64,000 nt of DNA, taken from assembly GCA_014859685.1 (NCBI GenBank), contig JACUTU010000005.1, positions 62,001-126,000 on the forward strand, in the 5' to 3' direction. The stretch is from Sulfurospirillum sp. (GTDB lineage: Bacteria; Campylobacterota; Campylobacteria; Campylobacterales; Sulfurospirillaceae). The translations under genes and the position numbers were made by a program. The notes beneath the pieces were generated by a model, which searched no databases, had not been told where the DNA came from, and saw only the letters and a program-made list of their open reading frames with translations. Below, piece after piece: positions 17,810-48,532 of this stretch; the stretch's first letter is position 1, and every line of letters begins with the position of its first letter.

Positions 17810-17810
17810 C

Positions 17811-18350: not shown

Positions 18351-18351
18351 C

Positions 18352-21740: not shown

Positions 21741-22351
21741 AATCCAACTCCATACATATGAATAATAATCTCAAATTTTACACCACCCTTTTGTGTATCT
21801 TGAGTGAGGCTAATTTTGTCGATATCCATTAAAAGTTCAAGATTTTCTATGTAATGAATAAATTTTAGTGTATCCATATATGATCCATTACCATCAATAA
21901 TCATTGTTTTTTTATAACCAATAAGCTCTGAAATATCGGCTTTTTTCTCTTGTGTATTTTTTATAAAATTGATTTGAATATTTTTTTGCAATGACTCTTT
22001 CAATAAATCATTCAGTGCTCTTGCAAGTTCTTTTTCAGCAAAAAAAGCAAATTTTACTTTATAAAGATTTGCCATCAAAAATGAACTTCGTTCCTTGAGT
22101 GCTTCAAGATTGCTTGCTTCTTTGAGCTGCAACTCTTTAGTCTGTGCTAAATCTCTACTCAGTCTTTTTGCCGAATTTTTTACTATCTCCATTTGCATCG
22201 ATGCAATTTCACTCTCAAGCGATTCTTGTTTCTCTATCAAAGATGGCAAAAACTGATTGAGTAACATAAAACTCACCAAAAGCACACTCGCATATATCAT
22301 AAATTTTTGTTTTATATCCGCGTTTTGCATATAGGTCATAAAACTATTCAT
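21737..22351 (-). CDS. PilO/MshJ-like inner-membrane alignment protein
   Basis: 204 residues: a short N-terminal cytoplasmic part, one membrane helix (about 18-38), a coiled-coil (about 40-85, rich in E, K, L) and a ferredoxin-like C-terminal domain. The region IIDGNGSYMDTLKFIHYIENLELLMDIDKISL is the usual PilO-type strand-helix-strand. Together with the PilM/PilN-like gene before it and the secretin after it, this makes the standard M-N-O-P-Q order. Overlaps its neighbours by 4 bases on each side. Confidence 0.8.
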   Translation of the reverse strand: MNSFMTYMQNADIKQKFMIYASVLLVSFMLLNQFLPSLIEKQESLESEIASMQMEIVKNSAKRLSRDLAQTKELQLKEASNLEALKERSSFLMANLYKVKFAFFAEKELARALNDLLKESLQKNIQINFIKNTQEKKADISELIGYKKTMIIDGNGSYMDTLKFIHYIENLELLMDIDKISLTQDTQKGGVKFEIIIHMYGVGL

Positions 22352-23490
22352 CGCATTAGCTCCACTAGGCTTATGTATGTATTATCTTCAAGTTTAATCT
22401 CTTGAGTGTTCACGCCAACAAAGCCTTGTGCTATAAGATCTTGCATAAATTTAGCTATATTGTCTCTATCTTTAGAGTTTGAGTATACCGCTATGTGCAT
22501 GTTTTTTGCACCTTCAAGTTTAATGTTTTTTGCTTGAAGCTTATATTTTTGCAACAGAAGATTGACCCGATAAAAAAAGTCGCTTGTTGTTTTGCTTGCA
22601 GTTTTTGTTGCGTATAAGTCTGTGATACTTTTTGATATCTTTTTGATGCGTTCTTGGGTAGCGCTTGATTCATTTTGGATTTGGCTCAGTGCTTTTTTTT
22701 GTTCACTCAAAGCTGTTTGCAATTTGTTTGTGCTAGCTTTGATACTATCTCTTTGCGATGCTACTTCAAGGCTTGTTTGCTCAAGAGCGTTGATTTGTAT
22801 AGAAAGATAGATCGGATATGCCAACAAAAGAGCTAAAAATCCACATACAATAAGGACAAATTTGCCGGCTTCGGTTTGTAAAAAAGGATCTTTTCGCTTA
22901 AAAAAATCGATTTTTAGTGCTGGATCTTGTTCGCTTGCTTGATCAAGCATATAACTAGCTAAGATTGGCGAGAGTGGGCTTGTATCTGGTTGGTTGGAAA
23001 AAAGTTGAAAATCCAACACTTTCATAGTACCATTTGAGAAAAAATTGATAATAAACTCTTTTAATCCCCTGATGCGTCCAAAATGCGTACTCATAAACAA
23101 TCGCTCGATTACATCAAAACCAAAAACACTTCTATTGTGAGTAATAACATTGTTTATTTTTGTAAACATCTTTGAAAACTCGGCTTCAAGTGCGTTAAAA
23201 ATATGTGCGTCATCTTTGGTGTAAAGCCCTACTGCAAGCCCCTTTTCTTGCAATAAAAGCTCAAACGCTTCTAAACTAAGCTCTATATCTTGTTTTTGTA
23301 ACTCTTGCTGCATCTCTTTGAGTGATGAAAGGGATTTTGCGGAGAGATATTTGCCTTCTTTATAGAGTGTTAAAAATGCCTCATCTTGCTCTATATAAAT
23401 AAAAACATCATTTTTAGGTGCTATGATTTTGTTTTTATAGAGTGTTTGAAATGCTAAAAAAGGCAATACAATAAAATCTATATATTTTGA
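22348..23490 (-). pseudogene. MshI/PilM-PilN-like protein, C-terminal part after a frameshift
   Basis: The frame continues the protein begun at 23843 after a 1-base shift at the A6 run (minus strand) at 23491-23496. It then reads KSKYIDFIVLPFLAFQTLYK and on through the rest of an actin-like PilM half, a membrane helix (about 205 residues on), a coiled-coil and a PilN-like domain that ends SLVELMR. The only start codon near its beginning is a TTG at 23466 without a ribosome site, which argues against an independent gene. Joined with the upstream piece, the product would be about 495 residues. It may be restored by slippage; see findings. Confidence 0.75.
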
Positions 23491-23843
23491 TTTTTTAAGC
23501 GCGGAATTGAGTCTTGTGGTGAGTTTTCATGCTCGAGCGCAAAGGCTTCAATAAGCAACATATCTTCGTATTCAAGATCCTTGACTACATGTACAAAACT
23601 GTAGGTTTTTTGCAAATCAAGTCCGAGATCTTCATACATACGGATCTCAATCGATGCGCTTATCTCCTCTTTGGACTGGTTTTTTGGAACTTTGAAACTA
23701 TGTGAAATGAGATCATCATAAAAAATGCGTGAACCGATAAAGGATTTTTTAGAAAAGGAAGATGGTTGCGAAAACTCTTTCGCATCAAAAAAAAGTGCTT
23801 GCTCAATAACTGGATCAAGATAAACAACGGTATCAAAAGCCAT
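23478..23843 (-). pseudogene. MshI/PilM-PilN-like protein, N-terminal part before a frameshift
   Basis: 121 residues (MAFDTVVYLDPVIEQALFF...) that form the beginning of an actin-like PilM/MshI-type protein. The reading ends at a TAG at 23478 just after an A6 run. One extra A there would join it in frame to the downstream piece. The ATG has a GGGC-type ribosome site and follows the pseudopilin gene by 22 bases. The whole gene would supply the cytoplasmic ring that links platform and secretin. Confidence 0.75.
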
Positions 23844-23865
23844 CTATGCCCTTTTATAGTCAATT

Positions 23866-24339
23866 TTAATTGATTTTAGCAAAACCTGACATAGGATAAA
23901 CTGAAATAGTCCTACTTTTGGCGTTTTTGCTGATATTTACATCGATTGTCTGAGTCAATAAGTTTACCGTTAAGGGGTTTGTTGCATTGAATTCAAATGG
24001 TCTGCCTAAAAAATCAAAACAAAGTTTTTTGCTTAGGAGAGTTGTAGTGATGTTTGCATTGAGTTTATAAGTTTTTTTCCGATCAAGTGTTTCAAGAAAG
24101 TTTTTAGAAAATTCTATACATGTATGGTTAAAATATAGTGAATCTTCCCATGTAAAGTCATAACTGAGTGCATTTTTTTGCTGCTCTTTGATGTGCATTA
24201 GGACAAAGTTTGTATCATTTTCAACATCATAATTTGGAACAAAGCCAACACCAACAGAAGCCATGATAGCTATAATAATGATAACAAATACAAGTTCTAT
24301 CGTGGTAAAAGCGGCGGTTAATTTTGAATTACTTCTCAT
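23866..24339 (-). CDS. Minor pseudopilin, GspH-like
   Basis: 157 residues with a prepilin signal in which the cut would fall before FTTIELVFVIIII, after an alanine instead of glycine. The leader is longer (10 residues) than usual. A hydrophobic helix is followed by a beta-rich domain (NFVLMHIKEQQKNAL, KLCFDFLGRPFEF). The pattern fits minor pseudopilins of the GspH/FimT class. It overlaps the next pseudopilin gene upstream by 4 bases. Confidence 0.75.
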   Translation of the reverse strand: MRSNSKLTAAFTTIELVFVIIIIAIMASVGVGFVPNYDVENDTNFVLMHIKEQQKNALSYDFTWEDSLYFNHTCIEFSKNFLETLDRKKTYKLNANITTTLLSKKLCFDFLGRPFEFNATNPLTVNLLTQTIDVNISKNAKSRTISVYPMSGFAKIN

Positions 24340-24797
24340 GGGCGTTGCAAAGTCCTTCTGATTATTCTTATCTTTTTGTCTTGATTTTTTGGATGCGTTG
24401 CATTTGTTTTGACAACAATTTCTAAATCGACCATACCATGTGAGTCTTCGGTTACTATAGCTTGGACTCTATCACAGTTACTTAAAGTTGTCCTATTGTT
24501 GTCGTTTCCCTCAAAGAGATAATATTTTTTAATACTCACATTTGCATCAAACCGTTTGTCTTCTGAGATAAAATTTATGTTTTTTAAGCAATCATTTTGT
24601 GTACTTCTATCATAACCGCTGATAGCCAAAAGTGTCATCTCGACCGCTTCATCCATGAAAAGTTGTGCGCGTTCTTTGAGGTAAAGATCGGCTGTTTGCT
24701 TTGTAGTAATTTGGGCGTATTTCATAGCGATGATGAGTAATCCACTCACTAAAACTATGACGATAAGAGCTTGAATAAGTCCAAAGGCTTGTCGCAT
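24336..24797 (-). CDS. Minor pseudopilin, GspI/MshD-like
   Basis: 153 residues. The start MRQAFGLIQALIVIVLVSG is a degenerate prepilin signal: the cut would be before FGLIQ and the usual glutamate at +5 is replaced by glutamine. A missing E5 is typical of GspK-type tip subunits, so this could be a tip-proximal subunit. Two cysteines (NDCLKN and SNCDRV) may form a disulfide. It overlaps both neighbouring pseudopilin genes. Confidence 0.7.
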   Translation of the reverse strand: MRQAFGLIQALIVIVLVSGLLIIAMKYAQITTKQTADLYLKERAQLFMDEAVEMTLLAISGYDRSTQNDCLKNINFISEDKRFDANVSIKKYYLFEGNDNNRTTLSNCDRVQAIVTEDSHGMVDLEIVVKTNATHPKNQDKKIRIIRRTLQRP

Positions 24798-25675
24798 TAA
24801 AATACCACCTTTTCTTTGGATATATTTACACTATTGCCACCACGAATATTTTTTTTCGTACTGAAATTGAAATAAAGGTTATTGTTCATCACGCCTGCTT
24901 GAAAACTGATGACATCTTCAGCGAGTTTAGCGTAATTTCCATCGGTAAATTTTTGATTTTTCCATGGTCTAAAGTTATAAAAAAGGTAAAGGCTATTAGG
25001 GTCTAAACTAGTGTTTACATCTACACCTCTAGCAATTGCATACGCACTATCTACAAGATAGTATTTTTCATAGATCTCTTTTGGTTGTGTAATAAAAGTT
25101 ATATTGTTATTTGTTGCAGTAAAAGTGTATGTCAAATTTGCACCATTATTAGCCCAGCCAAAAGAGCTATTAAAATCATCTGAAGCCACAAGCGAAGCAT
25201 CATCAAAACTACCCGCAAAGATAAGGGCTATATCTTGATTTGCTATACTTCCGCTGCCAAATTTATCTACATGTAAAGCGTCTATTAAGCTAGCATTGAA
25301 GTCATAACTCACAACTGTTTTTGTATTTTTGTTACTTCCATCAAGATCAATAAAACCACTATATGCACGGGACTTATATGCTTCTACGCTTGTACCTATC
25401 CACTGTAATATCTTGTAATCACCACCATATATATTTGATATAGGCAAAAACGAGCCATCTGTTTTACTGCCTATTACAGTTGCTGGAACTCGCTCATATA
25501 AAAGTGCGGCTATTTGATCGATAACTATTTGGGATGTGAAAGAGAGATCACTCAAAGCTTTTGATTTGGCACTTCGCAAATAGAGATGTTTGAGTGACAC
25601 AAAAGTTCCAGCTGACAGAACGCCAAGTATAACAATAGTTACAATAATTTCTACAAGAGTAAAAGCTCGCTTCAC
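24797..25675 (-). CDS. Minor pseudopilin, GspJ/MshO-like
   Basis: 292 residues with a clear class III signal: MKRAFTLVEIIVTIVILG, cut after A4. The large soluble domain is mainly beta. GTG at 25675 is chosen as start because AAAGGAG lies 8-10 bases upstream and no ATG is close. The size and place fit GspJ/MshO. A 124-base gap with AT-rich sequence separates it from the preceding gene, so it may have its own promoter. Confidence 0.8.
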   Translation of the reverse strand: MKRAFTLVEIIVTIVILGVLSAGTFVSLKHLYLRSAKSKALSDLSFTSQIVIDQIAALLYERVPATVIGSKTDGSFLPISNIYGGDYKILQWIGTSVEAYKSRAYSGFIDLDGSNKNTKTVVSYDFNASLIDALHVDKFGSGSIANQDIALIFAGSFDDASLVASDDFNSSFGWANNGANLTYTFTATNNNITFITQPKEIYEKYYLVDSAYAIARGVDVNTSLDPNSLYLFYNFRPWKNQKFTDGNYAKLAEDVISFQAGVMNNNLYFNFSTKKNIRGGNSVNISKEKVVF

Positions 25676-25799
25676 TTATAAGTCTCCTTTTTGCTAAGCA
25701 AAACACAGAAAAAATTCCTCTCACTAAAGCTTTGCTGAAGAGAAAAAACGAAACTCTTATTTTTATGTTTTTTTGCATTAACTTTTTGGCAAGAGTATA

Positions 25800-26420
25800 T
25801 CATTCCCATACTCGCTTATGCAAATAAGATTGACCTATGTTTGCTGAAGTATAATCAAAACGCAGCAACTCTCTCTTTTCGCCCCTGTTGCCATTGTAAG
25901 ATGTGAGAAATGAAACTCTTTTGAGATTTGTGTTTCCCAAAGGTGAACCGCAAGTACTTAAATCAATCGTTGCAATAGAAGCATTAAAATCATCGCAATA
26001 CCTAACTTGAGTGTTTAATTCATAAATCGCTGTTGTTAAGTTATGGTCTTTCCAATCATCCACATCATCAAAATTTAGCTCACTCTCGCCACTCTCGCTA
26101 CCCAAAGATGCACTTACGGTGATATTATTTTCACAGTTTCTACTCCCTACAAATCCACCAATTCTATAAGTTGCATTGGTATCGCAACTAAATCTGCTAC
26201 TGTTTACATGTAGGATATCTGCATAAGCTACATTTTGCTCATCCCAAGGAAGTTTTGAAATCATCTGTGCCAAAGAGATGGTGTTGAGAATTGCATCTTG
26301 ATTGACTGCAAAAGCATCACTTTTATTGAGTGCAAAAATCACTTTTGGAATCACGGTAAACACCAAAGCGATGATAACGATGGTAAAAATAAGTTCTATG
26401 ATAGATATGGCTCTTCTCAT
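25800..26420 (-). CDS. Minor pseudopilin / prepilin-like protein
   Basis: 206 residues. The start MRRAISIIELIFTIVIIALV has the glutamate at +5 relative to a cut after A4 but isoleucine in place of phenylalanine or methionine at +1. Four cysteines occur in the soluble part, two of them in SRNCEN and YCDDFN. Class assignment within the minor pseudopilins is not possible by eye. Its start overlaps the stop of the LamG adhesin gene as ATGA. Confidence 0.75.
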   Translation of the reverse strand: MRRAISIIELIFTIVIIALVFTVIPKVIFALNKSDAFAVNQDAILNTISLAQMISKLPWDEQNVAYADILHVNSSRFSCDTNATYRIGGFVGSRNCENNITVSASLGSESGESELNFDDVDDWKDHNLTTAIYELNTQVRYCDDFNASIATIDLSTCGSPLGNTNLKRVSFLTSYNGNRGEKRELLRFDYTSANIGQSYLHKRVWE

Positions 26421-29400
26421 CGAAATGTTTTTACTCCAGATTTTTGTACCTGACCTGTATAGTTGCCATCTTTTGCAACGCTACTGCCTTCAAAAAATCC
26501 ACTTTGTATATTTCTACTTGAGCCTGTGGCATTGTAAATGTATCTAAAACATGGATGTTCCCCACAGTCAGTTGTAGCATTGTAATCACTATATCTGTTG
26601 TACCAAAGATACTTTGGAATATCTAGGTGGATATAAGCATCATCAGAATCGAGCGGTATTTGCTTTTCTAATGTAAAGCGCAATACACCTGCGTTTACAT
26701 GTGTGTCTAGGGGCGTTACTTGTACAGAATCATTTTGTTCATCACTTGAAAAAATGAAACTTTTTTTTGGATAAAAGTCAAAATCATTGGCAATAGAATC
26801 ATCTTTCATCTCATACCAATTTATACTATTTTGTTTAAAACCACTTAAATTAGCATTACTATACACTTCTATTTTCGCATCATGATTGATGGATGTTTTG
26901 TTGGTAGTGATATCTTTTGTGGTTATGCGTCCGTAGTAGAACTTTTTACTAAGGTTTATGCTATTGTTATTTTCATATTTTGCAACATCTAATGAGTCTA
27001 TTTTAATTTCTGCGAGTGATATGTCGATAGGATTGAGTGGTGTTGTATGATTTCGATCGATATTGAAACTATACTCTATGTTTGCTACGCCTTGAGAAAA
27101 TTGACTCGTGTTTATATCGATAGTTTTATTGATGTCATTTATAAATTTTGAGCCATCTAAAGTAGATGTGAAATTTACATCTTGCGGATTTACCACGCTA
27201 TAAAAAAATTTCAAAGCAACATCACTTGCATAACAATTTGCATCGAAATTTTGAAGTTTTTCATGCTGCATGTTATTTGCTTGCACACTGGCACTTGCTG
27301 TGACATTTGTATCTGATAATTTAGCCATATAAAGCCAATCAAGGCCGTTGCTTGCATTAAAATCTGCTTGTGTTATATTTAGCTCATAAGGCTGAATTAA
27401 AAATGTTTTTGTGATAGGCTCTATTAGTCTCATAGTATCGTTCGTATCATCTGCATCCACAAATGCAAATTCGCTCCCAAGTTTCTCAAATACAGTAATG
27501 TTTATCTCTCCATTTTCACTATAATTTGCATCAACATTTTGCAATCCATCTTTAAAGCTAAAATTTGCCATATTAAGTACACCATTTGTACAACCACCCT
27601 TAGCAATAGTAGCATTTATATCAAATGACAGCCCCTTTGTTTCATTGTAATCTTGTGATCGTTGAGATGTATCATCAAGAGCTTTAAACTCAAAAGAGAA
27701 ATTTTCTCCAGCATATATATCTGTTGGCATAGTGAAATCAAATTTCTTTGGACGAATAGCAAAACTATCTACAGCAGTTGTATTTTTATCTTCTCCAAAA
27801 ATTCTTATCTTGGCACATCTTGATGCTTTTGGATATACAAAAAGAGGCAAGGTGAAACAAGCATCAGTACCTGTTTGGGCATTGCCCTCCCAAATCTTAT
27901 AAGTTTCACTCAAATTGCTACATGTAGGATCTGAATAATTTAGCAATTCCACTTTTGTTATATTTGCATCAGGTAAAGCTAAACCATTTTCATCTTTCGA
28001 GAGTATCACTAAGCTGATATCTTTACTAACTATTTTTGTAGTGATATTATTATCCCAATTAAAACATCCGCCATTTTCATCCACGGCATTAAAAGTCACA
28101 TTAGTATCACCAACGCTACATGTGCAATTTCTAATAGCTCCCGTATAATCCTTACCTGCATTTTCATGGTCATACAACTTCTTAATGTCATCGCTATTTA
28201 AAGCCTGATCAAAAATCTTAACCTCATCCATAACACCTTTAAAAACCTTGAATTCTTCTTGGCTATTGTTTAATGTATAGAGATTTCCTATATAAAAATT
28301 TGAATTATAATCTGGAATAAAACTGCTTGTTTCTTTACGCGTAGAATCTAAAATTCCATTTATATATATCTTGGTTCGTTGATCTGTAGACAATCTGCCA
28401 TCAAAAACTATCGCTACATGTGTCCATTCTTTTTCTTTGATCCATGTTGTGGAATATGTTCTATTATTTTGAGAATCCACATCCACATACAAAGCCGCCT
28501 TATTGGCATCCATTTTATGTCCATTCCAAAAAAAAACTCCATAGGCATATTGGGTATCTCCGCTATGACTATTTCTTTTTGAAAAAAGACCTCGTGCATT
28601 TGTTCCATTATCTTGGGTTAATTCTTCGGGATAGATCCATGCCATAGTAGTGAGGGTTTGGGTATTATCAAGTACATCTGCATCATCGACACGAATGTAT
28701 TGATTTACACCATTGAACTCTGCTCCTGTACATACTTTTGCTCTTTTAGAGATCAATGCTTCACTGATTGGATATATGGTGCCATCCATTCCTGTATTGG
28801 CACTTTGAGCAACTCTAAATGAATCTCCTCCAGATCCACACAAATCATCTAGCCTATAATCTGCGATTGGACATATTTTGTATTTTGAAATCGCTGTGCC
28901 ATCGTATTGTTTTTTTGCAACTTGGTTGGCAACTATTGTTTCCACTTCACTATCTAAAAGAGAAGAAGAAAATACCAAAACTTTATCAATGTAACCATCA
29001 AAGTCGCTACCAATATTTGCCGCACCCTTTGGAGCTGTTACATTTCCCTTTATGGATTGCGAAACATTTGCTTCTAATGATCCATTTTCATCATATACTT
29101 GAAGTGTTTTTTGCTTTAAATCTGCGTCAAATCTTGCAACTACCAAATACCATTTGTTATTTTCTACGATTGGTTCAGTGTCTAAGTTTACATTTTTTAC
29201 TCCTTTGATATAAAACCTAACCCTACCCTCTCCAGAATCTCCTAAGCTTATGCCATAATTTCCATTTGCATTCTTTTCACCATCTGCAAAAATTCTCTGA
29301 TTTGATTTACTAGAATCATTTGTTTTAAACCATGCACTAATTGTTCGAGAACCATTTATAGCAGGAAAATTTGGCAATGCAACATAACTCGAATTGTTAA

Positions 29401-29554
29401 ATTTTGCAACCCTACCAAACATATCATCCTTATCAGAGATATACTTACTTATCATCCCACTTGCTGTTCCATTATAATCGCCCATTTCATCCTTAACCTC
29501 ACCCGATGAGCCATTATAATAACAATCTTCAAATTGATAATTTGCTATAGGCAC
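26417..29554 (-). CDS. Large LamG-domain adhesin-like protein, MshQ type, probably 5'-truncated
   Basis: 1045 residues remain. Two tandem LamG/concanavalin-like domains are visible, each opening with the same pattern: PIANYQFEDCYYNGS (residue 2) and PIADYRLDDLCGSGG (near 230). The rest is a long beta-rich region with many short aspartate/asparagine-rich turns, as in MshQ proteins, ending VQKSGVKTF. The only start is a GTG at 29554 that gives no signal peptide, and the open frame runs 12 codons further into a half REP element before a TGA. I infer that the signal peptide and first part are lost. It heads the minor pseudopilin genes, fitting a pilus-tip adhesin. Confidence 0.75.
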   Translation of the reverse strand: MPIANYQFEDCYYNGSSGEVKDEMGDYNGTASGMISKYISDKDDMFGRVAKFNNSSYVALPNFPAINGSRTISAWFKTNDSSKSNQRIFADGEKNANGNYGISLGDSGEGRVRFYIKGVKNVNLDTEPIVENNKWYLVVARFDADLKQKTLQVYDENGSLEANVSQSIKGNVTAPKGAANIGSDFDGYIDKVLVFSSSLLDSEVETIVANQVAKKQYDGTAISKYKICPIADYRLDDLCGSGGDSFRVAQSANTGMDGTIYPISEALISKRAKVCTGAEFNGVNQYIRVDDADVLDNTQTLTTMAWIYPEELTQDNGTNARGLFSKRNSHSGDTQYAYGVFFWNGHKMDANKAALYVDVDSQNNRTYSTTWIKEKEWTHVAIVFDGRLSTDQRTKIYINGILDSTRKETSSFIPDYNSNFYIGNLYTLNNSQEEFKVFKGVMDEVKIFDQALNSDDIKKLYDHENAGKDYTGAIRNCTCSVGDTNVTFNAVDENGGCFNWDNNITTKIVSKDISLVILSKDENGLALPDANITKVELLNYSDPTCSNLSETYKIWEGNAQTGTDACFTLPLFVYPKASRCAKIRIFGEDKNTTAVDSFAIRPKKFDFTMPTDIYAGENFSFEFKALDDTSQRSQDYNETKGLSFDINATIAKGGCTNGVLNMANFSFKDGLQNVDANYSENGEINITVFEKLGSEFAFVDADDTNDTMRLIEPITKTFLIQPYELNITQADFNASNGLDWLYMAKLSDTNVTASASVQANNMQHEKLQNFDANCYASDVALKFFYSVVNPQDVNFTSTLDGSKFINDINKTIDINTSQFSQGVANIEYSFNIDRNHTTPLNPIDISLAEIKIDSLDVAKYENNNSINLSKKFYYGRITTKDITTNKTSINHDAKIEVYSNANLSGFKQNSINWYEMKDDSIANDFDFYPKKSFIFSSDEQNDSVQVTPLDTHVNAGVLRFTLEKQIPLDSDDAYIHLDIPKYLWYNRYSDYNATTDCGEHPCFRYIYNATGSSRNIQSGFFEGSSVAKDGNYTGQVQKSGVKTFR

Positions 29555-29562: not shown

Positions 29563-29584
29563 ATGGGGACAGGCTACTTTTTTT
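29563..29584 (+). repeat. Half REP-like element at the broken 5' end of the LamG gene
   Basis: ATGGGGACAGGCTAC followed by seven T is one arm of the palindrome seen in full at 33128, 39901 and 52329. The second arm is absent; the following bases (AAAATATC) are unrelated. The arm lies 9 bases upstream of the GTG start of the LamG gene. Confidence 0.85.
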
Positions 29585-32535: not shown

Positions 32536-33167
32536 TGGAACTTTTACATCAAAGCATCGACTTTTTAGTACAAACTATCGGCTCATTAGGATACATCGGG
32601 ATTTTTGCTCTTATGTTTTTAGAAAGTTCATTTTTCCCTTTTCCTAGCGAAATTGTGATGATTCCTGCTGGCTTTTTGGCTTATAAAGGCGAGATGAATC
32701 TCTTTTTAGTCATCACTATGGGAAGTTTAGGCTCTCTAAGTGGTGCGCTTTTTAATTACTATCTCTCCAAAACGCTTGGGCGAAAACTTCTGCTTGCATA
32801 TGGACATTTTATCTGGTTTGATGAGAGCAAACTACTCAAAATGGAAGCATTTTTTGCACGACACGGTGAGATATCCACCTTTAACGGTCGCCTTATTCCA
32901 GTAGTACGCCAATACATTTCACTGCCGGCTGGCTTAGCAAATATGAACCTTCTCAAATTTTCACTCTACACCACACTAGGCGCTAGCATCTGGATCAGCA
33001 TCCTCACATTTTTAGGCTACGCCCTAGGAGATCAAAGCGAACTCATCAAAAAATACCTCCAAAGCATCACAATAATAACACTCATTCTGCTAGTGATACT
33101 TTCTCTAATATATATAAAAGCAAAAAAAATGGGGACAGGCTACTTTTTTATGAAATCAAAAAAGTAG
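32535..33167 (+). CDS. DedA-family membrane protein with a REP-encoded C-terminus
   Basis: DedA proteins are inner-membrane flippases or transporters needed for envelope integrity. Family features are the FLESSFFPFPSEIVMIPAGFLA segment region (about 30-50), the arginines in FFARHGEISTFNGRLIPVVRQYISLPAG (about 115-140) and four to five hydrophobic helices. Length 210 residues. The last 13 residues (KMGTGYFFMKSKK) and the TAG stop are encoded by the inserted palindromic repeat at 33128-33179, so the native tail has been replaced. Start is GTG overlapping the valS stop. Confidence 0.88.
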   Translation: MELLHQSIDFLVQTIGSLGYIGIFALMFLESSFFPFPSEIVMIPAGFLAYKGEMNLFLVITMGSLGSLSGALFNYYLSKTLGRKLLLAYGHFIWFDESKLLKMEAFFARHGEISTFNGRLIPVVRQYISLPAGLANMNLLKFSLYTTLGASIWISILTFLGYALGDQSELIKKYLQSITIITLILLVILSLIYIKAKKMGTGYFFMKSKK

Positions 33168-33179
33168 CCTGTCCCCATT
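33128..33179 (+). repeat. REP-like palindrome 1 (supplies the dedA stop and a terminator)
   Basis: Two 22-base arms (33128-33149 and 33158-33179) are perfect inverted copies of AATGGGGACAGGCTAC plus six T. The 8-base loop is ATGAAATC, which gives the element an orientation. The left arm is translated as part of DedA and the right arm contains its TAG. The A- and T-tracts make it a probable bidirectional terminator between dedA and the convergent lyase gene. GGGGACAGGC palindromes of this kind are spread by RAYT (IS200-like) transposases; none is in the window. Confidence 0.85.
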
Positions 33180-33185: not shown

Positions 33186-34169
33186 TTAGGCAAAGAATCT
33201 TTTGTTTACTTCTTCACAAAGTTTTACGCCACTGAAGTGGGCTCTTTGTAGAAGTTCCCAAAAGTAGCGGTAGGTTGCACGGTCGTGGAGTTCTCCTGCA
33301 TATTGGATTGGTCCCCATTTGGCATCTTGAGCTGCTATAAGAATGCCTTGTGCGGCTTCTAGTTCACCAAAATCTGGTTTCATAGCATCAACTATAGCTG
33401 GAATTTGTGTTGGGTATATGCTCCACATACGCATAAATCCAAACTCTTCTCTTGCTTTTTTTGCATCACTATAAGTTTGGTAACTATTTTTTAGATCGAG
33501 CGTGACATTGTGGCACGGAATGACACTGTTTGCAAGTGCTGCTTGTGTGATATTGGCTTTAGCTCTTGCTAAGAGTGCGTGTTCGAACTGCCCAGGACTG
33601 CGCATATTTGAAGCAGCAATTGCTCCTTGATAACCAGAAACAAAATCCATCAAACCAAAATCCAGCACTTGAAGCCATGGAAGTGTTGCTATCTGTTCGA
33701 CATCTCGCAAAGCCCCATGTGTTTCTATGAGGATGTGGATAGGAATCTGTCTTGAGATGCCAGCTGTCTTACATGTAGCTTGAATATACTCAATCTGCTC
33801 TTTTACATCGTTGTAAGAATTGCATTTTGGCAGGGTGATGTACGCTAGATTTTCACCCGCTTGCGATACGAGGATATCTACATCACTCTTCCAATTTGCA
33901 TTCGAATAATCATGGATACGAACGCCCGCCATTTTGTAAGTATTGTCGCTCGCGTTTATCATAGAAGCTACCATATTGGCATGTTCCACCTCTTTGCCAA
34001 CTTGTGCGCCATCTTCACAATCACATGTAATATCAAAAATTGCTCCCAATTTTCTTTGCAATTCAAAAGCTTTTGCAATCAGCTTCTGGCTTCCTGCAAA
34101 ATGCTCACAACTTGGAATAATCGGCAAACTTTTGCCTGATTCAAAAAGTTCTTCATTTGGATGTGTCAT
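33186..34169 (-). CDS. HpcH/HpaI (CitE-like) lyase, malyl-CoA / methylmalyl-CoA lyase type
   Basis: A magnesium-dependent C-C lyase of the CitE superfamily, 327 residues. The metal and CoA motifs are intact: DITCDCEDGAQVGKE (about 45-60), VRIHDYSN, ILIETHGALRDVEQIA (Glu ligand) and LDFGLMDFVSGYQG (Asp ligand). The family includes L-malyl-CoA / beta-methylmalyl-CoA lyase, which splits the ester into glyoxylate and acetyl- or propionyl-CoA. Last gene of a four-gene operon, 10 bases after a mesaconyl-CoA hydratase-like gene, which supports the methylmalyl-CoA reading. Confidence 0.82.
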   Translation of the reverse strand: MTHPNEELFESGKSLPIIPSCEHFAGSQKLIAKAFELQRKLGAIFDITCDCEDGAQVGKEVEHANMVASMINASDNTYKMAGVRIHDYSNANWKSDVDILVSQAGENLAYITLPKCNSYNDVKEQIEYIQATCKTAGISRQIPIHILIETHGALRDVEQIATLPWLQVLDFGLMDFVSGYQGAIAASNMRSPGQFEHALLARAKANITQAALANSVIPCHNVTLDLKNSYQTYSDAKKAREEFGFMRMWSIYPTQIPAIVDAMKPDFGELEAAQGILIAAQDAKWGPIQYAGELHDRATYRYFWELLQRAHFSGVKLCEEVNKRFFA

Positions 34170-34179
34170 CTCATATTCC

Positions 34180-35232
34180 TTATAATAATTTTTTTGGTAT
34201 CACCACAGTATAGTCTAGATCCAAAACTACATGTGGCAGATATTTGCCATCTTCACCTTTTGGATTTTGAATATCTTTGGGTTGGATATTTTTAAGTCCG
34301 ATTGTGCGGATTCGTAACAATCCTATGTCATCTCGCTCACATTCTATCTTCTCTAAAATCTGGCTATAAGCATAGATCGTATCGCCTCCGTATGTTGGAT
34401 TTACATGCGTACCTGCGTTGATTGCATAAATCCACATCGCATTTTGTAAGCCGTTAAAACTTAGCGTTCTTGCTATGGAAATTACATGCCCACCGTACAT
34501 CAACCGTTTTCCCATCGGTGTAGTTTGCATCATAAAAGCATCAAAATGAACCTTTGCATTGTTTTGATACAATTTTGTTGCCATCGTATGGTCACTCTCA
34601 TCAACAGTGATTCCCTCTGGATGATCTAAACGCTCTCCCACTTCATAATCTTCAAAAAAATATCGTCCACCACTCATTTGTGAATCAAATTTTGCAATTT
34701 TTGGAATTCGAATCTCTTTGGAGATGGGTGTTGTTTTTGCCATTTGTGCAACGATACTGATCCCACTGCAAACATTTGGATTTCGTTTATGCACCATTAC
34801 CCATCGCTTGAGGTTAAGCACTTCTTGTAAATGCTGATTGTAGCCTATAGAATGCACATACACTACACCACTTTTACCATTTGAATTTTCCTTGAGTCCT
34901 ATAACACGCGATTTCATCAATACTGTATCACCTACGAATACGGGCGACTTAAAACATACCTCAGCGTATCCAAGATTTGCTATGGCATTGAGTGAAATAT
35001 CTTGTACCGACTTTCCAAAAATAAGATGAAAAGCTAGCAAATCATCGAGGGGTTTTTTTTCATACCCCAACGCTTTTGCAAAAGGATCGCTTACATGTAA
35101 GGCAAAACGACTTCCCGTAAGCGCTATGTACAAGGAAACATCGCCATCACTGATTGTGCGTGGCAATGGATGCACAATCTCTTGATTGAGGATAAAATCT
35201 TCAAAAAAATTGCCCCTATTTATCTTTGACAT
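34180..35232 (-). CDS. MaoC-family double-hotdog hydratase, mesaconyl-CoA hydratase-like
   Basis: Adds water to an enoyl-CoA; mesaconyl-CoA hydratase makes beta-methylmalyl-CoA. The protein has two hotdog domains (about 10-165 and 185-350), as in that enzyme, and a total length of about 350 residues. Visible elements are NRGNFFEDFILNQEIVHPLPR at the start, FHLIFGKSVQDISLNAI in the first domain, and GGRYFFEDYEVGERLDHPEG and GGHVISIARTLSFNGL in the second. I use the ATG at 35232 because AGGAA lies 6 bases upstream. Substrate is inferred from family and neighbours. Confidence 0.82.
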   Translation of the reverse strand: MSKINRGNFFEDFILNQEIVHPLPRTISDGDVSLYIALTGSRFALHVSDPFAKALGYEKKPLDDLLAFHLIFGKSVQDISLNAIANLGYAEVCFKSPVFVGDTVLMKSRVIGLKENSNGKSGVVYVHSIGYNQHLQEVLNLKRWVMVHKRNPNVCSGISIVAQMAKTTPISKEIRIPKIAKFDSQMSGGRYFFEDYEVGERLDHPEGITVDESDHTMATKLYQNNAKVHFDAFMMQTTPMGKRLMYGGHVISIARTLSFNGLQNAMWIYAINAGTHVNPTYGGDTIYAYSQILEKIECERDDIGLLRIRTIGLKNIQPKDIQNPKGEDGKYLPHVVLDLDYTVVIPKKLL

Positions 35233-35241
35233 TATCATTTC

Positions 35242-37764
35242 CTAAAAAAGTTTTTGACCGATTTCGCGGTATCTATCATAGAGTGTAATAACCCGTTGCG
35301 CCCACTCAATGCGAGTGCGATCGATGAGTTCATCTTTGTATTGTATGACTTCTCGACCACTTTTTTGCGCCCGTTCATAGGCTTCTATCATCTCTTTTGC
35401 ATCTTCTACCTCATGTTTTTTTGGCGTAAAGATGTCATTCACATATTCAAGTTGTATAGGATGAATGGCAGCTTTTCCATCACAACCTAGGTAAAAAGCA
35501 TCTTTAGAGCTTGCTTCACATGAGAATTCATCACTTACATCGAAATGTGGCCCATCGATGACGATCTTACCATAAGCGCGTGCTGCTAAAACGATTTGTG
35601 CCATATAATTAAAGATTGCTTTTGAATTTTTCTTGAGATTGATTTGCAATCTTTGTGCAAGTGTGTTTGAGCCTATCATAATCACACGAAGTCTTGTACC
35701 AGCCGCACAGATGCTTTGAACATTTAAAACTCCAAGCGGCGTTTCGATACCTGCCATCAATTCGAGTTTAGGATTGATGGCTTCTATGATTTCATCAGCA
35801 CGCATAATATCGCCAGCACTTTGTATACAAGAAAACAAAATCGCATCGATATCAAGCTTTTTAGCAAGCTCAATATCTGCTTGCAAATCTTCACTTCCAA
35901 GTTTATTGACCCGCAATATCCGCTCGCTTGTGCCAAAATTGCTACTTTGCATAAATTGCTTTTCGATCATCACTCGAGCCACTTCTCTTTGTTCCTCAAG
36001 TATTCCCTCAAGATCAAAGATCACAGCATCAGCGAGCAAGGTTCTTGATTTTTCGATAAATTTTTCATTATATGGTGGTACAAAAAGCATCGATCGCCTT
36101 GCCCTATAAGCATCTTTATTCTCAATTACCTGTTTTTCATCATTTTTTTTTAAAAGTTGTTTCACAAGTTCTTTTCGCAAAACTTTACCATTTTTTGTTT
36201 TTGGATAATCTGTTACCGTATAAATCATCTTTGGCGCTTTGTATTTTGCAAGGTTGGCTTGTGCGTATTGTAAAATCTGAACCTCATCTTCATTGTTTAA
36301 AGTCTCTTTGCCAATAACCGCAACAGCTACGATAGTTTTATATGCGTCAAGTTCCATTCCAAGAGCTACACAATCAGCCACTTTTGGATGAGTTTTAACA
36401 ACTCTTTCTATCTCATGTGGACTAACGCGAAAGCCAAAGGTATTGATGATGTCATCTTTTCTTCCCAAAAACCAGATATAGCCATCTTTGTCTCTTTTGG
36501 CATAATCACCCGTAAAAAAGTGGCCATTGTGTCTAGCTTGTGCTGTGTCTTCTTCAAGATTCCAATACTCCAAAAACAATCCTGGATCATCGACACCAAC
36601 ACATATCATTCCCTCCTCTTCAATACCAACTTCTTCCAAGGTCTGCGGATTGAGAAGTTTTACATTGTGACCAGGCTGTACAAATCCTGCACTCCCAGGG
36701 CGGATTGGTCTGTATTTTGAGTGTGAGATATAGTAAGAAAACTCACTCATACCGATAGCTTCATAGATATCTTGCTCAAATCTCGCCTGCCAAAGTGTAA
36801 CCATCTCACTGCTTAGATGTTCCCCAGCACTCATACAATGTCGCAAACTTGGACAATCCTTGATTGTAAAATCTGTTTTTTGTAGTATCTGCCTGTAGAT
36901 AGTAGGTACTCCAATGAAAATCGTACAATTATGCTTTTTGATAAGTTTCACCCAGCTTGTTGCGTCATTTTCACCCTCGTGTGCGATCACGGTATGCCCG
37001 CGATAGAGAGGATCCATCAGTGCTGAACCTAAAACATAAGTCCAGTTAAACTTGCCAGAGTGCATAATGCGATCATTTTCTTTGAAATCAAACCAAAATT
37101 CACTCGCAGGTTCGCGTCCGACCAAAGAACGGTGCGAATGCAAAACACCTTTTGGAAAACCCGTTGTGCCAGAAGTATAAACAAGATATGCTGGCTCACC
37201 GGAGCGAGAATTATAATGCTTTGGCAATTCATCAAAATGCTCAAGTACCCAATCAAGTGCATAAATATTTATATGCTTTGGCTGCTGTACTTCATTGGCG
37301 TTTTGAATCCCTGAAATAATAATATGCTGCAAATTATCAAGGTTTTCTAAGTATGGCAAGAGATTATCATACATTGAAACTGACAATACGATTGCCTTTG
37401 CTTGCGAATCAGTCGCTAGATACTTTACTTCAGAACCGCTAAGCAGTGTAGAAGTAGGCACAGCGATAGCACCTGCTTTCATAGCTCCAAAGAAAGAGAT
37501 CGGATAGGCAAGTGAATTTTTCAAACAGATCAACACGCGATCACGAATGCTGATGTCCAAAGAACGAAGAAAGTTTGCAAAACGATCAGATTGCACACTT
37601 AATTCTTTGTAAGTAATCTGTGAGGTACACAATTTGCTATCTTCAATAATCATAGCTATATTGTCTTCTTTTGGAGTGCCTAAATGTTTTGAGGTACAGC
37701 TCACGCCTATATTTAAAAATTCTGGAACTTTTATCTCTAATTGTGGATAATCTTGTAATTTCAT
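35242..37764 (-). CDS. Fusion of an AMP-forming acyl-CoA synthetase with a CitE-like lyase domain
   Basis: 840 residues. The first part (1 to about 540) is an adenylate-forming CoA ligase: YTSGTTGFPKG (about 196-206), YEAIGMSEFSYY, FFTGDYAKRDKDGYIWFLGR and the C-terminal lysine motif PKTKNGKVLRKEL. The second part (about 550-840) is a CitE-like TIM barrel: RRSMLFVPP, DAVIFDLEG, LRVNKLGSEDLQADIE, MAGIETPLGV. Its second acidic metal ligand seems replaced (IGSNTLAQRL, Asn where Asp is usual), so this domain may be inactive or altered. The ATG at 37764 has AAGGGG upstream; an earlier ATG would read over it. The pairing suggests activation of a dicarboxylic acid to its CoA ester followed by cleavage or binding. 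Confidence 0.85.
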   Translation of the reverse strand: MKLQDYPQLEIKVPEFLNIGVSCTSKHLGTPKEDNIAMIIEDSKLCTSQITYKELSVQSDRFANFLRSLDISIRDRVLICLKNSLAYPISFFGAMKAGAIAVPTSTLLSGSEVKYLATDSQAKAIVLSVSMYDNLLPYLENLDNLQHIIISGIQNANEVQQPKHINIYALDWVLEHFDELPKHYNSRSGEPAYLVYTSGTTGFPKGVLHSHRSLVGREPASEFWFDFKENDRIMHSGKFNWTYVLGSALMDPLYRGHTVIAHEGENDATSWVKLIKKHNCTIFIGVPTIYRQILQKTDFTIKDCPSLRHCMSAGEHLSSEMVTLWQARFEQDIYEAIGMSEFSYYISHSKYRPIRPGSAGFVQPGHNVKLLNPQTLEEVGIEEEGMICVGVDDPGLFLEYWNLEEDTAQARHNGHFFTGDYAKRDKDGYIWFLGRKDDIINTFGFRVSPHEIERVVKTHPKVADCVALGMELDAYKTIVAVAVIGKETLNNEDEVQILQYAQANLAKYKAPKMIYTVTDYPKTKNGKVLRKELVKQLLKKNDEKQVIENKDAYRARRSMLFVPPYNEKFIEKSRTLLADAVIFDLEGILEEQREVARVMIEKQFMQSSNFGTSERILRVNKLGSEDLQADIELAKKLDIDAILFSCIQSAGDIMRADEIIEAINPKLELMAGIETPLGVLNVQSICAAGTRLRVIMIGSNTLAQRLQINLKKNSKAIFNYMAQIVLAARAYGKIVIDGPHFDVSDEFSCEASSKDAFYLGCDGKAAIHPIQLEYVNDIFTPKKHEVEDAKEMIEAYERAQKSGREVIQYKDELIDRTRIEWAQRVITLYDRYREIGQKLF

Positions 37765-37774
37765 TTTTTGCCCC

Positions 37775-38908
37775 TTACAGTTTGCCATACGGCCAGTTTT
37801 CTTTGATAGTGTGGATTGGCATCTTACTTAAAACATGCATCGCAAAATCTTGATCCTCTTTTTGCAAAGATTTTAATGCATACGCTCTGAGAATATTTTG
37901 CAAAGATTTTCCAAACATCGGAGGATCAAGCATTTCGCCCTCAAATCGTATAGCCCCGCTCAAAAGTGCATCAGCTTCAATTGCAGCTTTGAGAATATTG
38001 ATATTTTGTTGTACTTCACTTGGTGATGGCGTAAAAGCCACTTTGCAAATGTTAATATGATTTGGTGTAATAACTTGTTTACCCGTAAGCCCCATCGCGG
38101 TTTCTCTTTTTGCATGTGCATATACATGTCGGCTTGCATCATCACCATGCAAATCAAGCCACCTTCTTATATCTTTTTTCTCAAGACAACTATCTGGTAG
38201 AGAGTTTGGCGTGAGCAATACTTCAACGCCTCCAATAACGCCGCAGCCCTTGATACGAGCTTCCATAGTAAGCATATTGAAAAATGTTTGCAACTCATCG
38301 ATCCAACCCTCTGGTGTGATTTTATAAGCAAGTGCTTTTGAAAAATCGTGGATACCAAAGACTACATGTTTAACAGTAGAATGGCTCATAAGTCTATCTG
38401 CAATCTGCAAAGAGCGAGGATGCTCAATAATTGGCTGGATAGTGAGATTGCTACCGATAGACACAAGCCAAGAGGACAGATCCCTAATTTCAGCATCACC
38501 ATACACTTCACCCGCTTTTGATAACACGATCACATCGATATATTTATGGATCTGCTTGAGCATCGCTAAATCTGCATCATATTCATCTGTTCGAAATGGA
38601 TTGATGCGAACTGCTATTTGAAAATCTCGCGGTGGAAATTTTGGCAACTCTTCAATGAGTAATTTTCGCGACATCTCTTTCATGCGACACCCATCTTCAA
38701 GATCAAACAAAAGTGTATGCGCACCTGTTTTATAGGCATGCTTTTGAAGCCTAAATTTTGCTTGCTCTTGTGTCTCATATGTTCCATCAAGAGGATTGTA
38801 CTTGATGGGAGGGTAATATATCTGGATTCCTGGCCAGTAACCGCCAAGTTTGATCCGAAGATCATCATCATGACTCAAACTGGAAAAATCTGTAAAATAC
38901 GCTGACAT
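37775..38908 (-). CDS. HpcH/HpaI-type (CitE-like) lyase, first gene of the CoA-ester operon
   Basis: 377 residues. CitE-like motifs: HTLLFDLEDGCRMKEMSRK (about 75-92), VRINPFRTDEYDADL, PIIEHPRSLQIADRLM (Glu ligand) and VFGIHDFSKALAYK (Asp ligand). It is longer than malyl-CoA lyases and clearly distinct from the other two lyase domains of the operon. The ATG at 38908 (MSAYFTDFS) is supported by GAAAGG 7 bases upstream. It ends inside the leader of the ligase fusion gene. Substrate unknown. Confidence 0.8.
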   Translation of the reverse strand: MSAYFTDFSSLSHDDDLRIKLGGYWPGIQIYYPPIKYNPLDGTYETQEQAKFRLQKHAYKTGAHTLLFDLEDGCRMKEMSRKLLIEELPKFPPRDFQIAVRINPFRTDEYDADLAMLKQIHKYIDVIVLSKAGEVYGDAEIRDLSSWLVSIGSNLTIQPIIEHPRSLQIADRLMSHSTVKHVVFGIHDFSKALAYKITPEGWIDELQTFFNMLTMEARIKGCGVIGGVEVLLTPNSLPDSCLEKKDIRRWLDLHGDDASRHVYAHAKRETAMGLTGKQVITPNHINICKVAFTPSPSEVQQNINILKAAIEADALLSGAIRFEGEMLDPPMFGKSLQNILRAYALKSLQKEDQDFAMHVLSKMPIHTIKENWPYGKL

Positions 38909-39174
38909 GATTTTTACCTTTCTTTTTTGTGAATATGGCATTTTTTCATACTCATTCTAAAGAGATTACGCATTTTTTCCACTACTATGTGTGGCTTATA
39001 AAAAATTTATATTTTTATAGATGCCTTATTTTGGGGTTATAAACGAGTTGTATTTTGAAAAGTTTTACATAGTGAGAAAATTTTACACAAAGCTTCTTAT
39101 ATGTTAAAAGAAAAAATACAAATTTTTCACAAAATATGCAAATAAAATGGTAAGATAAAAATAAAAGTCCAAAG

Positions 39175-39894
39175 ATGCACAAACAAAACAAATCTCTTTC
39201 AAAAGGTTTGGCAGTTTTACGCCTCATAGCCTCATCGCAAAAACCACTTAATGCATCTTATATGTGTCGAGTACTTGATATCGATAAAAGCACGATGTCA
39301 CGACTCATAGCAACACTTATGCAAGAACACTTCATCACTTATACACAAAATTCCAAGGAGATCATTTTGAGTGATTTTACGAAAAATTTTACCGTAAAAG
39401 AAACCAGAGAAAAGATCATAGAACAAACACAAAATCTACTTGATGAGATTTACTATCTTACAAATGAAGCCGCCTACATAGGTGTTTTGGACAATGATGC
39501 ACTTTTGATTCTAAACCAAATTGACAAATCAAATCGTGTTTTAAAAACGAGAAATTCCATAGGTCTGCATTTACCATTACACACAAATGCCTTTGGCAAA
39601 ATCATCCTATCCTTTGCAAACATAGATTTAAAAACACTTGAACTCAAAAAATACACAAACCGAACTTTCACAAGCGTAAATAAATTACAAAAAGAACTCG
39701 ACCTCATTGCAGAGCGAGGCTACGCCACAGGAAACGAAGAACACGAATACGGACTAAAATCACTAGCCGTTCCCTATTTTGGAACAAATAACCAATTTCT
39801 AGGAGCTCTAGGCATATCAGGACTAGCCATCAGACTAGACGAAGAAACCCTACACAATTTCGGACAAAAAATATACCAAACAATTAATATTTAA
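39175..39894 (+). CDS. IclR-family transcriptional regulator
   Basis: 239 residues: an N-terminal winged helix-turn-helix (about 8-65: SLSKGLAVLRLIASS, DKSTMSRLIATLMQEHFI) and a C-terminal effector domain (about 85-239) with RGYATGNEEHEYGLKSLAVPYFG and LGALGISGLAIRL. It lies divergent to the CoA-ester operon, with 266 bases between the two starts, and is probably its regulator responding to an organic acid. The direct repeat TTTTACA (39063-39069 and 39081-39087) in this gap is a possible operator. A REP palindrome follows 6 bases after its stop. Confidence 0.88.
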   Translation: MHKQNKSLSKGLAVLRLIASSQKPLNASYMCRVLDIDKSTMSRLIATLMQEHFITYTQNSKEIILSDFTKNFTVKETREKIIEQTQNLLDEIYYLTNEAAYIGVLDNDALLILNQIDKSNRVLKTRNSIGLHLPLHTNAFGKIILSFANIDLKTLELKKYTNRTFTSVNKLQKELDLIAERGYATGNEEHEYGLKSLAVPYFGTNNQFLGALGISGLAIRLDEETLHNFGQKIYQTINI

Positions 39895-39900: not shown

Positions 39901-39956
39901 TTAATGGGGACAGGCTACTTTTTTATGAAATCAAAAAAGTAGCCTGTCCCCATTAA
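39901..39956 (+). repeat. REP-like palindrome 2, between convergent iclR-type and tonB genes
   Basis: Two 24-base arms (39901-39924 and 39933-39956) are perfect inverted copies, TTAATGGGGACAGGCTAC plus six T. The loop is ATGAAATC, the same orientation as element 1. The bases just before it, TTTAATGGGAT (39890s), partly duplicate the arm start. It can act as terminator for both flanking genes. Confidence 0.85.
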
Positions 39957-46387: not shown

Positions 46388-46918
46388 GTGAAGAAAAATA
46401 AATTCCTAGTATATACTGCATTAGTAGTTGTAATCATAGCCATCGGGATGTTTGCGTATGTGGTGAAAAGTTCAAAAGCACTTTCATACCTCTCAAGCGA
46501 TCCCGCAGCTTGTATCAACTGCCATGTCATGAATACGCAATATGCAACATGGCAACACAGTTCACATGCGCAAGTCAAATGTATAGAATGTCACTTGCCT
46601 ACTACGGGTATAGTAGATAAGTACATCGCAAAAGCTAGAGACGGCTGGAACCACTCTGTTGCTTTTACACTCAATACTTATGATAATGCGATCAAGATCA
46701 GTGAGAATGGTGCAAAAAGGGTGCAAGACAATTGTATCTCCTGCCATAAAAGCCTCACCTCTGAGATTGTGAGCAATAGTGATAGATACCATCAATTTGA
46801 TGATCCTAGTGTTGCAACAGGAAGAAAATGTTGGGAATGCCACAGCAGTGTTCCACATGGTAAAGTTCGAGGTTTATCGAGTACGCCAAACGCTTTAGGC
46901 GTAAAAGTTGTAAAATAA
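46388..46918 (+). CDS. nrfH: Cytochrome c nitrite reductase small subunit NrfH
   Basis: Membrane-anchored tetrahaem quinol dehydrogenase that passes electrons from menaquinol to NrfA. 176 residues: one N-terminal membrane helix (about 5-26) and four haem motifs, CINCH, CIECH, CISCH and CWECH. Start is GTG, preceded by AAAGGATGG; the in-frame ATG alternatives are absent. First gene of an nrfHAIJ operon, behind an FNR-type site. Confidence 0.96.
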   Translation: MKKNKFLVYTALVVVIIAIGMFAYVVKSSKALSYLSSDPAACINCHVMNTQYATWQHSSHAQVKCIECHLPTTGIVDKYIAKARDGWNHSVAFTLNTYDNAIKISENGAKRVQDNCISCHKSLTSEIVSNSDRYHQFDDPSVATGRKCWECHSSVPHGKVRGLSSTPNALGVKVVK

Positions 46919-46928
46919 AAAGGGAGTT

Positions 46929-48479
46929 ATGATTATGAAATTAAAATTACTGATAGCCACATGTCTTGCTGCGATAGTAGCAATGGGATTGTTGGTGAGC
47001 AATATAAATGCGAAAGAAGAGCAACGAATTGCACTCAACGAAGCACCAAGCATTGCTGGAATAGCAAGCAAAGAAAAAAGTGAAGAATGGGCAAAGTACT
47101 ATCCAAGACAGTTTGATACTTGGAAAAAGACAAAAGAATACGATACATTTACAGATATGCTAGCCAAAGATCCAGCACTTGTTGTGGTGTGGGCTGGTTA
47201 TGCTTTTGCAAAAGATTATAACTCACCACGAGGTCACTACTATGCGTTGCAAGACAATATCAACTCACTAAGAACTGGCGCTCCTGTGGATGGAAAAACA
47301 GGCCCATTGCCAACAGCTTGTTGGACATGTAAATCTCCAGATGTTCCAAGACTTATCGAAGAGCAAGGTGAATTAGAGTTTTTTACAGGCAAATGGTCAA
47401 AATATGGCAGTGAGATTGTGAATTCTATCGGATGTGCAAACTGCCATGATGATAAAACTGCTGCACTTAAGGTGCGTGTGCCACATCTCAATCGTGGGCT
47501 AGAAGCTGCTGGTTTAGCAAAATTTGAAGACTCTACACACCAACAAAAACGCTCACTCGTATGTGCTCAGTGCCATGTTGAATACTACTTCAAAAAAACT
47601 CCATACAAAGACGATAAAGGTGTTGATAAAACAGCTGTCGTAGTTACGCTTCCATGGGCAAATGGTATCGGTAAAGAGGGTAATGCAGGCGTTGAGGGAA
47701 TGATTGAGTATTATGATGGAATTGGTTTTACAGATTGGACGCATAAGATTTCTAAAACAAAAATGCTCAAAGCGCAACACCCTGGATTTGAATTTTTTCA
47801 AACAGGTATCCACGGTCAAAAAGGTCTTGCTTGTGCAGATTGCCATATGCCTTATACACAAGAAGGTTCGGTGAAGTATTCTGACCACCAAGTTTTAGAA
47901 AATCCACTCAATGCTATGGATCGTACATGTAGCAATTGTCACAGAGAAGGTGAAGCGAAACTAAAAAATATCGTAAGACAAAAATACGATAGAAAAGAAT
48001 TTCTATCAAAAATCGCTTTTGATAATCTCGGTAAATTACACCTAGAAACTGGCAAGGCAATCGAGCTTGGTGCGAGTGATGAAGAACTTAAAGATGTTCG
48101 TACTTTAATCCGTCATGGACAATTTAAAGCAGATATGGCGGTTGCGGCACATGCTAACTACTTCCATGCTCCTGAAGAGACATTAAGATTACTTTCAGCT
48201 GCAAATGAAGATGCACAAAATGGTCGTTTGCTTCTTGTTAAAGTATTGGCAAAATATGGTGCGATAGATTATATAGCTCCAGATTTTGATACAAAAGAGA
48301 AAGCGCAAAAAATAGTTGGTATAGATTTAGCAAAACTTGCTGTCGAAAAAATGAACTTCAAACTTACACTTGAACAAGAGTGGAAAAAAGAAGCAAAAGC
48401 AACAGGTCGTGCAAATCCAGAACTTTACAAAGATGCAGATACCATCAATGATGGTAAATCATCTTGGAATAAAAAGTAA
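46929..48479 (+). CDS. nrfA: Cytochrome c nitrite reductase catalytic subunit NrfA
   Basis: Periplasmic pentahaem enzyme reducing nitrite to ammonium with six electrons. 516 residues with signal peptide (1-28). The active-site haem motif is CWTCK, with lysine as haem ligand; four CXXCH motifs follow: CANCH, CAQCH, CADCH and CSNCH. Only one CXXCK is seen, so the maturation factor NrfI downstream is expected to be the dedicated haem lyase. Ribosome site AAAGGGAG. A 12-bp hairpin follows its stop. Confidence 0.97.
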   Translation: MIMKLKLLIATCLAAIVAMGLLVSNINAKEEQRIALNEAPSIAGIASKEKSEEWAKYYPRQFDTWKKTKEYDTFTDMLAKDPALVVVWAGYAFAKDYNSPRGHYYALQDNINSLRTGAPVDGKTGPLPTACWTCKSPDVPRLIEEQGELEFFTGKWSKYGSEIVNSIGCANCHDDKTAALKVRVPHLNRGLEAAGLAKFEDSTHQQKRSLVCAQCHVEYYFKKTPYKDDKGVDKTAVVVTLPWANGIGKEGNAGVEGMIEYYDGIGFTDWTHKISKTKMLKAQHPGFEFFQTGIHGQKGLACADCHMPYTQEGSVKYSDHQVLENPLNAMDRTCSNCHREGEAKLKNIVRQKYDRKEFLSKIAFDNLGKLHLETGKAIELGASDEELKDVRTLIRHGQFKADMAVAAHANYFHAPEETLRLLSAANEDAQNGRLLLVKVLAKYGAIDYIAPDFDTKEKAQKIVGIDLAKLAVEKMNFKLTLEQEWKKEAKATGRANPELYKDADTINDGKSSWNKK

Positions 48480-48486
48480 ACTCCCA

Positions 48487-48514
48487 ATGACAAAGGGATT
48501 GTTCCCTTTGTCAT
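48487..48514 (+). promoter_or_regulatory. Intercistronic hairpin between nrfA and nrfI
   Basis: ATGACAAAGGGA (48487-48498) and its exact inverse (48503-48514) form a 12-bp stem with loop TTGT, 7 bases after the nrfA stop and 19 before the nrfI GTG. There is no long T-tract. It probably protects the nrfHA message or lowers nrfI expression, as intercistronic hairpins do. Confidence 0.65.
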
Positions 48515-48532
48515 CTTCTGTAAAGGAAATAT

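Follow-up and report, generated by a model that had tools for sequence, protein, structure and literature searches.

Four co-directional genes in Sulfurospirillum sp. (GenBank assembly GCA_014859685.1, contig JACUTU010000005.1, positions 62,001 to 126,000; this 64,000-nt stretch is called the window below) may encode the mesaconate-centered half of a route resembling the 3-hydroxypropionate bi-cycle, passing through free mesaconate and citramalate without an Mct enzyme. We consider the chances of this reading, which is suggested by sequence comparison, to be about even. Read on the minus strand from 38908 to 33186, the genes encode a CitE/malyl-coenzyme A (CoA)-lyase-type protein (lyA388), an acyl-CoA ligase fused to a CitE-like domain, an Mch-like hydratase (Mch), and a second lyase-type protein (ly327). 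A preliminary description of the window had proposed a four-gene operon with a divergent IclR regulator, and the open reading frames (ORFs), Shine-Dalgarno starts, and Pfam domains bear this out.

In the proposed route, ly327 would convert glyoxylate and propionyl-CoA to beta-methylmalyl-CoA, which Mch would dehydrate to mesaconyl-C1-CoA. With loss of CoA this would yield free mesaconate, to be converted to (S)-citramalate by a class I fumarase whose gene lies on another contig of the genome (C5:54272-55753); the AMP-forming ligase would put CoA back on, and lyA388 would cleave the resulting (S)-citramalyl-CoA to acetyl-CoA and pyruvate. The net reaction would be glyoxylate + propionyl-CoA + ATP -> pyruvate + acetyl-CoA. 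Computation shows which genes and domains are present, how far residues are conserved, and how the genes are ordered and co-occur; we infer every substrate, the direction, the CoA-removing step, and what the fused CitE-like domain does.

Enzymes encoded by the operon

Mch has MaoC_dehydratas and MC_hydratase domains, the latter scoring 57.2 bits against a Pfam cut-off of 26.5, and its phmmer matches include 4e3e (E = 1.3e-115) and 8hgn, named "Beta-methylmalyl-CoA dehydratase" (E = 1.4e-107). Residues Q225, N226, and H231 are conserved in 77/77 proteins, the Asn and His lying in the C-terminal hotdog. The earlier label of mesaconyl-CoA hydratase-like enzyme agrees with these matches, and Mch is a putative mesaconyl-C1-CoA hydratase/beta-methylmalyl-CoA dehydratase.

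All three CitE-type domains of the operon score above the curated Pfam cut-off for HpcH_HpaI, and lyA388 and ly327 have the full catalytic set of Mg2+-dependent CitE/malyl-CoA lyases. For ly327, whose catalytic residues are identical in 72/72 proteins, phmmer finds 3qqw (1.7e-135) and 3r4i (6.3e-100), both named merely as citrate lyases; the closest characterized relative, more distant, is the malyl-CoA lyase 4l9y (profile E 1.6e-18). It is a candidate beta-methylmalyl-CoA lyase. lyA388 (HpcH_HpaI, 32.5 bits) matches solved relatives weakly, the closest by sequence being human CLYBL (5vxc), and its structure model is poor (predicted local distance difference test score, pLDDT, 62). Its residues D80, E82, D83, R112, E173, D199, K288, and the lid residue D339 (388-aa numbering) are identical in all 81 proteins compared, and it may be an (S)-citramalyl-CoA lyase.

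The N-terminal part of the fusion matches AMP-binding (239.7 bits) and AMP-binding_C (46.2 bits), with a P-loop (YTSGTTGFPKG) and a C-terminal lysine motif (TKNGKVLRK); it is predicted to be an (S)-citramalate or mesaconate:CoA ligase. The C-terminal part is a clear member of the CitE fold (HpcH_HpaI, 98.7 bits), and its AlphaFold model (pLDDT 88.6) is closest to CLYBL 5vxc and malyl-CoA lyases (template-modeling score about 0.8). The metal-binding Asp of the GxxD motif is, however, replaced by T709 in the window (848-aa numbering), and 36/36 fused proteins have T, K, N, S, R, or Q there; stand-alone versions have the metal Asp in 40/42 cases, but their lid Asp is replaced by Glu. Because an Asn or Asp stands one position earlier, the fused domain may still bind some metal; its role in the route is uncertain. 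The three CitE-like lyase domains of the preliminary description are an overstatement: all three match the family, but to speak of three lyases is doubtful, since the fused domain lacks the canonical metal ligand. A tree is compatible with a single fusion event, with low support (0.52).

The four ORFs span 33186 to 38941 (Table 1). Shine-Dalgarno sequences favor starts at 38908 (lyA388, in agreement with the operon start given earlier), 37764 (fusion), 35232 (Mch), and 34169 (ly327). From these starts the fusion has 840 aa, Mch 350 aa, and ly327 327 aa; lyA388, from the ATG at 38908, has 377 codons before the stop, or about 376-377 aa.

Table 1. Genes of the operon, its divergent regulator, and the site between them (positions in the window).
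Feature	Position	Strand	Basis and remarks
lyA388, CitE/malyl-CoA-lyase-type lyase, first gene	37775..38908	-	388-aa ORF opens at 38941; HpcH_HpaI
Fusion, N-terminal part: AMP-forming acyl-CoA ligase	36124..37764	-	Fusion ORF opens at 37788; AMP-binding
Fusion, C-terminal part: CitE-like domain	35242..36123	-	HpcH_HpaI; without canonical metal-binding Asp
Mch-like double-hotdog hydratase	34180..35232	-	ORF opens at 35238; MC_hydratase, phmmer
ly327, CitE/malyl-CoA-lyase-type lyase	33186..34169	-	phmmer, profile match
IclR-family regulator, divergent	39175..39894	+	IclR_C, HTH_IclR
Candidate operator TTTCTCACTATGTAAAA, between IclR gene and operon	39063..39079	-	Pattern conserved across loci

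Distribution, metabolic setting, and direction

Sixty genomes were searched, the window's own included; in a contig scan, 102 relatives of lyA388 were confirmed, and gene orders were taken from the 80 loci returned (loci are designated L below). An Mch ortholog occurs in 7/60 genomes, and the whole operon is present in each of the seven, so that the search for the same four-gene order proposed in the preliminary description finds it beyond its own genome. Given these seven genomes and the 80 loci returned of 102 confirmed, the operon is not a chance arrangement. The lyA388 loci belong to Campylobacterota, to Kangiella, Aliikangiella, Pleionea, and Thalassotalea, to Gallionellaceae and other Nitrosomonadales, and to a few metagenome-assembled genomes (MAGs), whose placements, above all those of L070-L072, may be unreliable.

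Campylobacterota have the ligase and the CitE-like domain in one fused protein, whereas Kangiella-type gammaproteobacteria encode them in separate neighboring genes. The two are also separate in Gallionellaceae, where lyA388-ligase is divergent from CitE-like-Mch-ly327, and in some Nitrosomonadales the genes are split into lyA388, ligase, and fumarase on the one hand and CitE-like, Mch, and ly327 on the other. L107 and L116 hold lyA388-ligase-fumarase, with Mch elsewhere in both genomes; Mch has CitE-like and ly327 neighbors in L120, and a ly327 neighbor in L121, at a contig end. These splits suggest that each module is a contiguous half of the route, the two meeting at mesaconate, and for this reason the forward direction, to pyruvate and acetyl-CoA, is favored.

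In many arcobacter loci the gene after ly327 encodes a single-chain class I fumarase, which gives a five-gene order in those of Aliarcobacter and Malaciobacter; several loci of the Sulfurospirillum type have this fumarase gene close to the operon. The ortholog in the window's own genome is 78% identical and is found besides a two-subunit fumarase. This single-chain fumarase occurs in 7/7 genomes with the operon and 2/53 without it (Fisher p = 9e-8, uncorrected for relatedness). Class I fumarases can hydrate mesaconate to (S)-citramalate (PMC4682846, PMC5592240), and the operon-linked one is likely a mesaconase.

This adjacency and co-occurrence were counted in favor of the mesaconate route, as were the Mch family match, the fully conserved active sites of Mch, lyA388, and ly327, the module splits, and the agreement with the net reaction proposed for Arcobacter butzleri (PMC2147049). 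A propionyl-CoA link was also counted: PrpB is encoded in 7/7 genomes with the operon and 13/53 without, and in L072 (a MAG of possibly unreliable placement) the operon genes are flanked on one side by pyruvate carboxylase B and on the other by PrpE, fumarase alpha, PrpB-PrpC, and PrpD. The earlier proposal of activation and hydration of a C5 dicarboxyl-CoA and its cleavage to an acyl-CoA plus glyoxylate or pyruvate fits the enzyme families, the mesaconase candidate, and the propionate context, though itaconate is disfavored (below). CoA_transf_3 has no match in the window's own genome, while five control genomes match, and Mct is therefore taken to be absent. Searches of the same genome found no MmgE/PrpD, and for isocitrate lyase merely a partial match, at the PrpB gene; family matches indicate malate synthase, PrpB, and GlcD, the last a possible glyoxylate source. 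The ethylmalonyl-CoA pathway was rejected, as the methylmalonyl-CoA-mutase family (PF01642) is absent from this genome.

Several points weigh against the proposed route. The literature searched gave no measured substrate or activity for close relatives of the cluster, and no separate thioesterase was identified for mesaconyl-C1-CoA. Malate synthase in the same genome already handles glyoxylate, and PrpB suggests a second propionyl-CoA route. No class I fumarase lies directly downstream of the operon here, the ortholog being on another contig, and the relation of lyA388 to citramalyl-CoA lyases is weak by sequence comparison.

The same enzymes working in reverse, in the direction of a citramalate cycle, are a serious rival, if on the improbable side. 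It remains serious because the genome has malate synthase and PrpB but, apart from the partial match noted above, no isocitrate lyase; PrpB accompanies the operon in all seven genomes, and the citramalate cycle has been described as running in this direction (PMC8307300). The ligase would then, however, fall in a module apart from Mch and ly327, and A. butzleri reportedly fails to grow on acetate (PMC2147049).

It is rather unlikely that the operon serves the catabolism of external mesaconate, citramalate, or a methylmalate, with the ligase activating the acid and cleavage giving either pyruvate and acetyl-CoA or glyoxylate and propionyl-CoA. Mesaconase and citramalyl-CoA cleavage do make up a known route of mesaconate utilization (PMC4682846), and the divergent IclR regulator with its conserved operator suggests a response to a metabolite; but Mch and ly327 would be superfluous for mesaconate use via citramalate, and no transporter gene was recognized among the neighbors examined, not all of which are annotated. 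Itaconate degradation of the RipABC or Ict-Ich-Ccl type is highly improbable, since the hydratase and lyase, though weakly matched by the RipB and RipC models, fall far under the equivalog cut-offs (114 bits vs. 340 and 48.7 bits vs. 375); the genome has no match to a CoA_transf_3 CoA-transferase, and a characterized archaeal Mch is inactive on itaconyl-CoA (PMC5592240).

Regulator, repeats, and neighboring genes

The divergent gene product matches IclR_C (112.5 bits) and HTH_IclR; its nearest named family is BhcR, at 107 bits far under the curated cut-off of 350. Many loci of the Sulfurospirillum and Arcobacter types have a divergent IclR gene beside the operon. At 13 loci the intergenic region contains a site resembling TTTCTCANTATGTGAAA, with one core substitution in L042, and the exact pattern occurs once in the window. 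With two mismatches allowed, a chance match would not be unusual; the evidence is the conservation across loci. The IclR protein may bind this candidate operator.

A long perfect palindrome (TGGGGACAGGCTACTTTTTT...AAAAAAGTAGCCTGTCCCCA) has full copies at 33131-33176, 39906-39951, and 52335-52380 and a half copy at 29565-29582. Two of the full copies bracket the operon and the IclR gene, and more matches are found in L021, from the same genome. It resembles repetitive extragenic palindromic (REP) sequences or miniature inverted-repeat transposable elements (MITEs); no transposase was seen in the portion of L021 examined.

In L045 (10656-11492) and further arcobacter loci, the operon or its fumarase has a DUF5718 protein encoded downstream, and in several relatives a 187-aa flavin-reductase-like protein is encoded near the operon (e.g., L043 16887-17450). 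Elsewhere in the window are a nitrite-reductase-like cluster with cytochrome c552 (PF02335) and a cytochrome c assembly gene (46388-51211); pilin-like and secretion-like ORFs, judged by reading their N-termini (13511-29554); and a class II aldolase adjoining an FGGY sugar kinase (6580-9298).

Comparison with known systems

The second half of the Chloroflexus 3-hydroxypropionate bi-cycle consists of Mcl, Mch, Mct, and Meh. The proposed route would share with it an Mch relative, malyl-CoA-lyase-type enzymes, and the net conversion; it differs in that the present genome has a pair of separate lyases, a ligase that depends on ATP, and a class I fumarase, and no CoA-transferase of the Mct type. Like mesaconate utilization in Burkholderia xenovorans, it would use a class I fumarase as its mesaconase and would cleave (S)-citramalyl-CoA (PMC4682846), but the present operon has an AMP-forming ligase. 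The citramalate cycle proposed for Rhodospirillum rubrum has the same intermediates in the direction opposite to the one preferred here (PMC8307300).

The combination of genes and the fusion, which the preliminary description did not recognize from any known system, were both described in 2007 for A. butzleri AB1917-AB1921. That cluster runs from CitE through a ligase bearing a CitE domain and a hydratase to another CitE and an anaerobic fumarase, and its proposed role is in interconverting glyoxylate + propionyl-CoA and pyruvate + acetyl-CoA (PMC2147049). In the limited library searched, neither a biochemical test of that prediction nor further literature on the cluster was found. In a comparison made on gene order and the published description rather than on sequence, the two share the order CitE, ligase-CitE fusion, hydratase, CitE and the proposed net reaction; the fumarase is in the cluster in A. 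butzleri and on another contig here. If the proposed route is correct, a number of groups within Campylobacterota, Gammaproteobacteria, and Nitrosomonadales would share a link between glyoxylate and propionyl-CoA metabolism that runs via free mesaconate and citramalate without Mct, and the 2007 genome prediction would become a set of specific, assayable enzymes in which the fused CitE-like domain is singled out. Gene set, order, fusion, and predicted role have thus been known since 2007; the present computation adds the fumarase co-occurrence, the module splits, the loss of the Asp in the fused domain, and the enzyme inventory of the genome.
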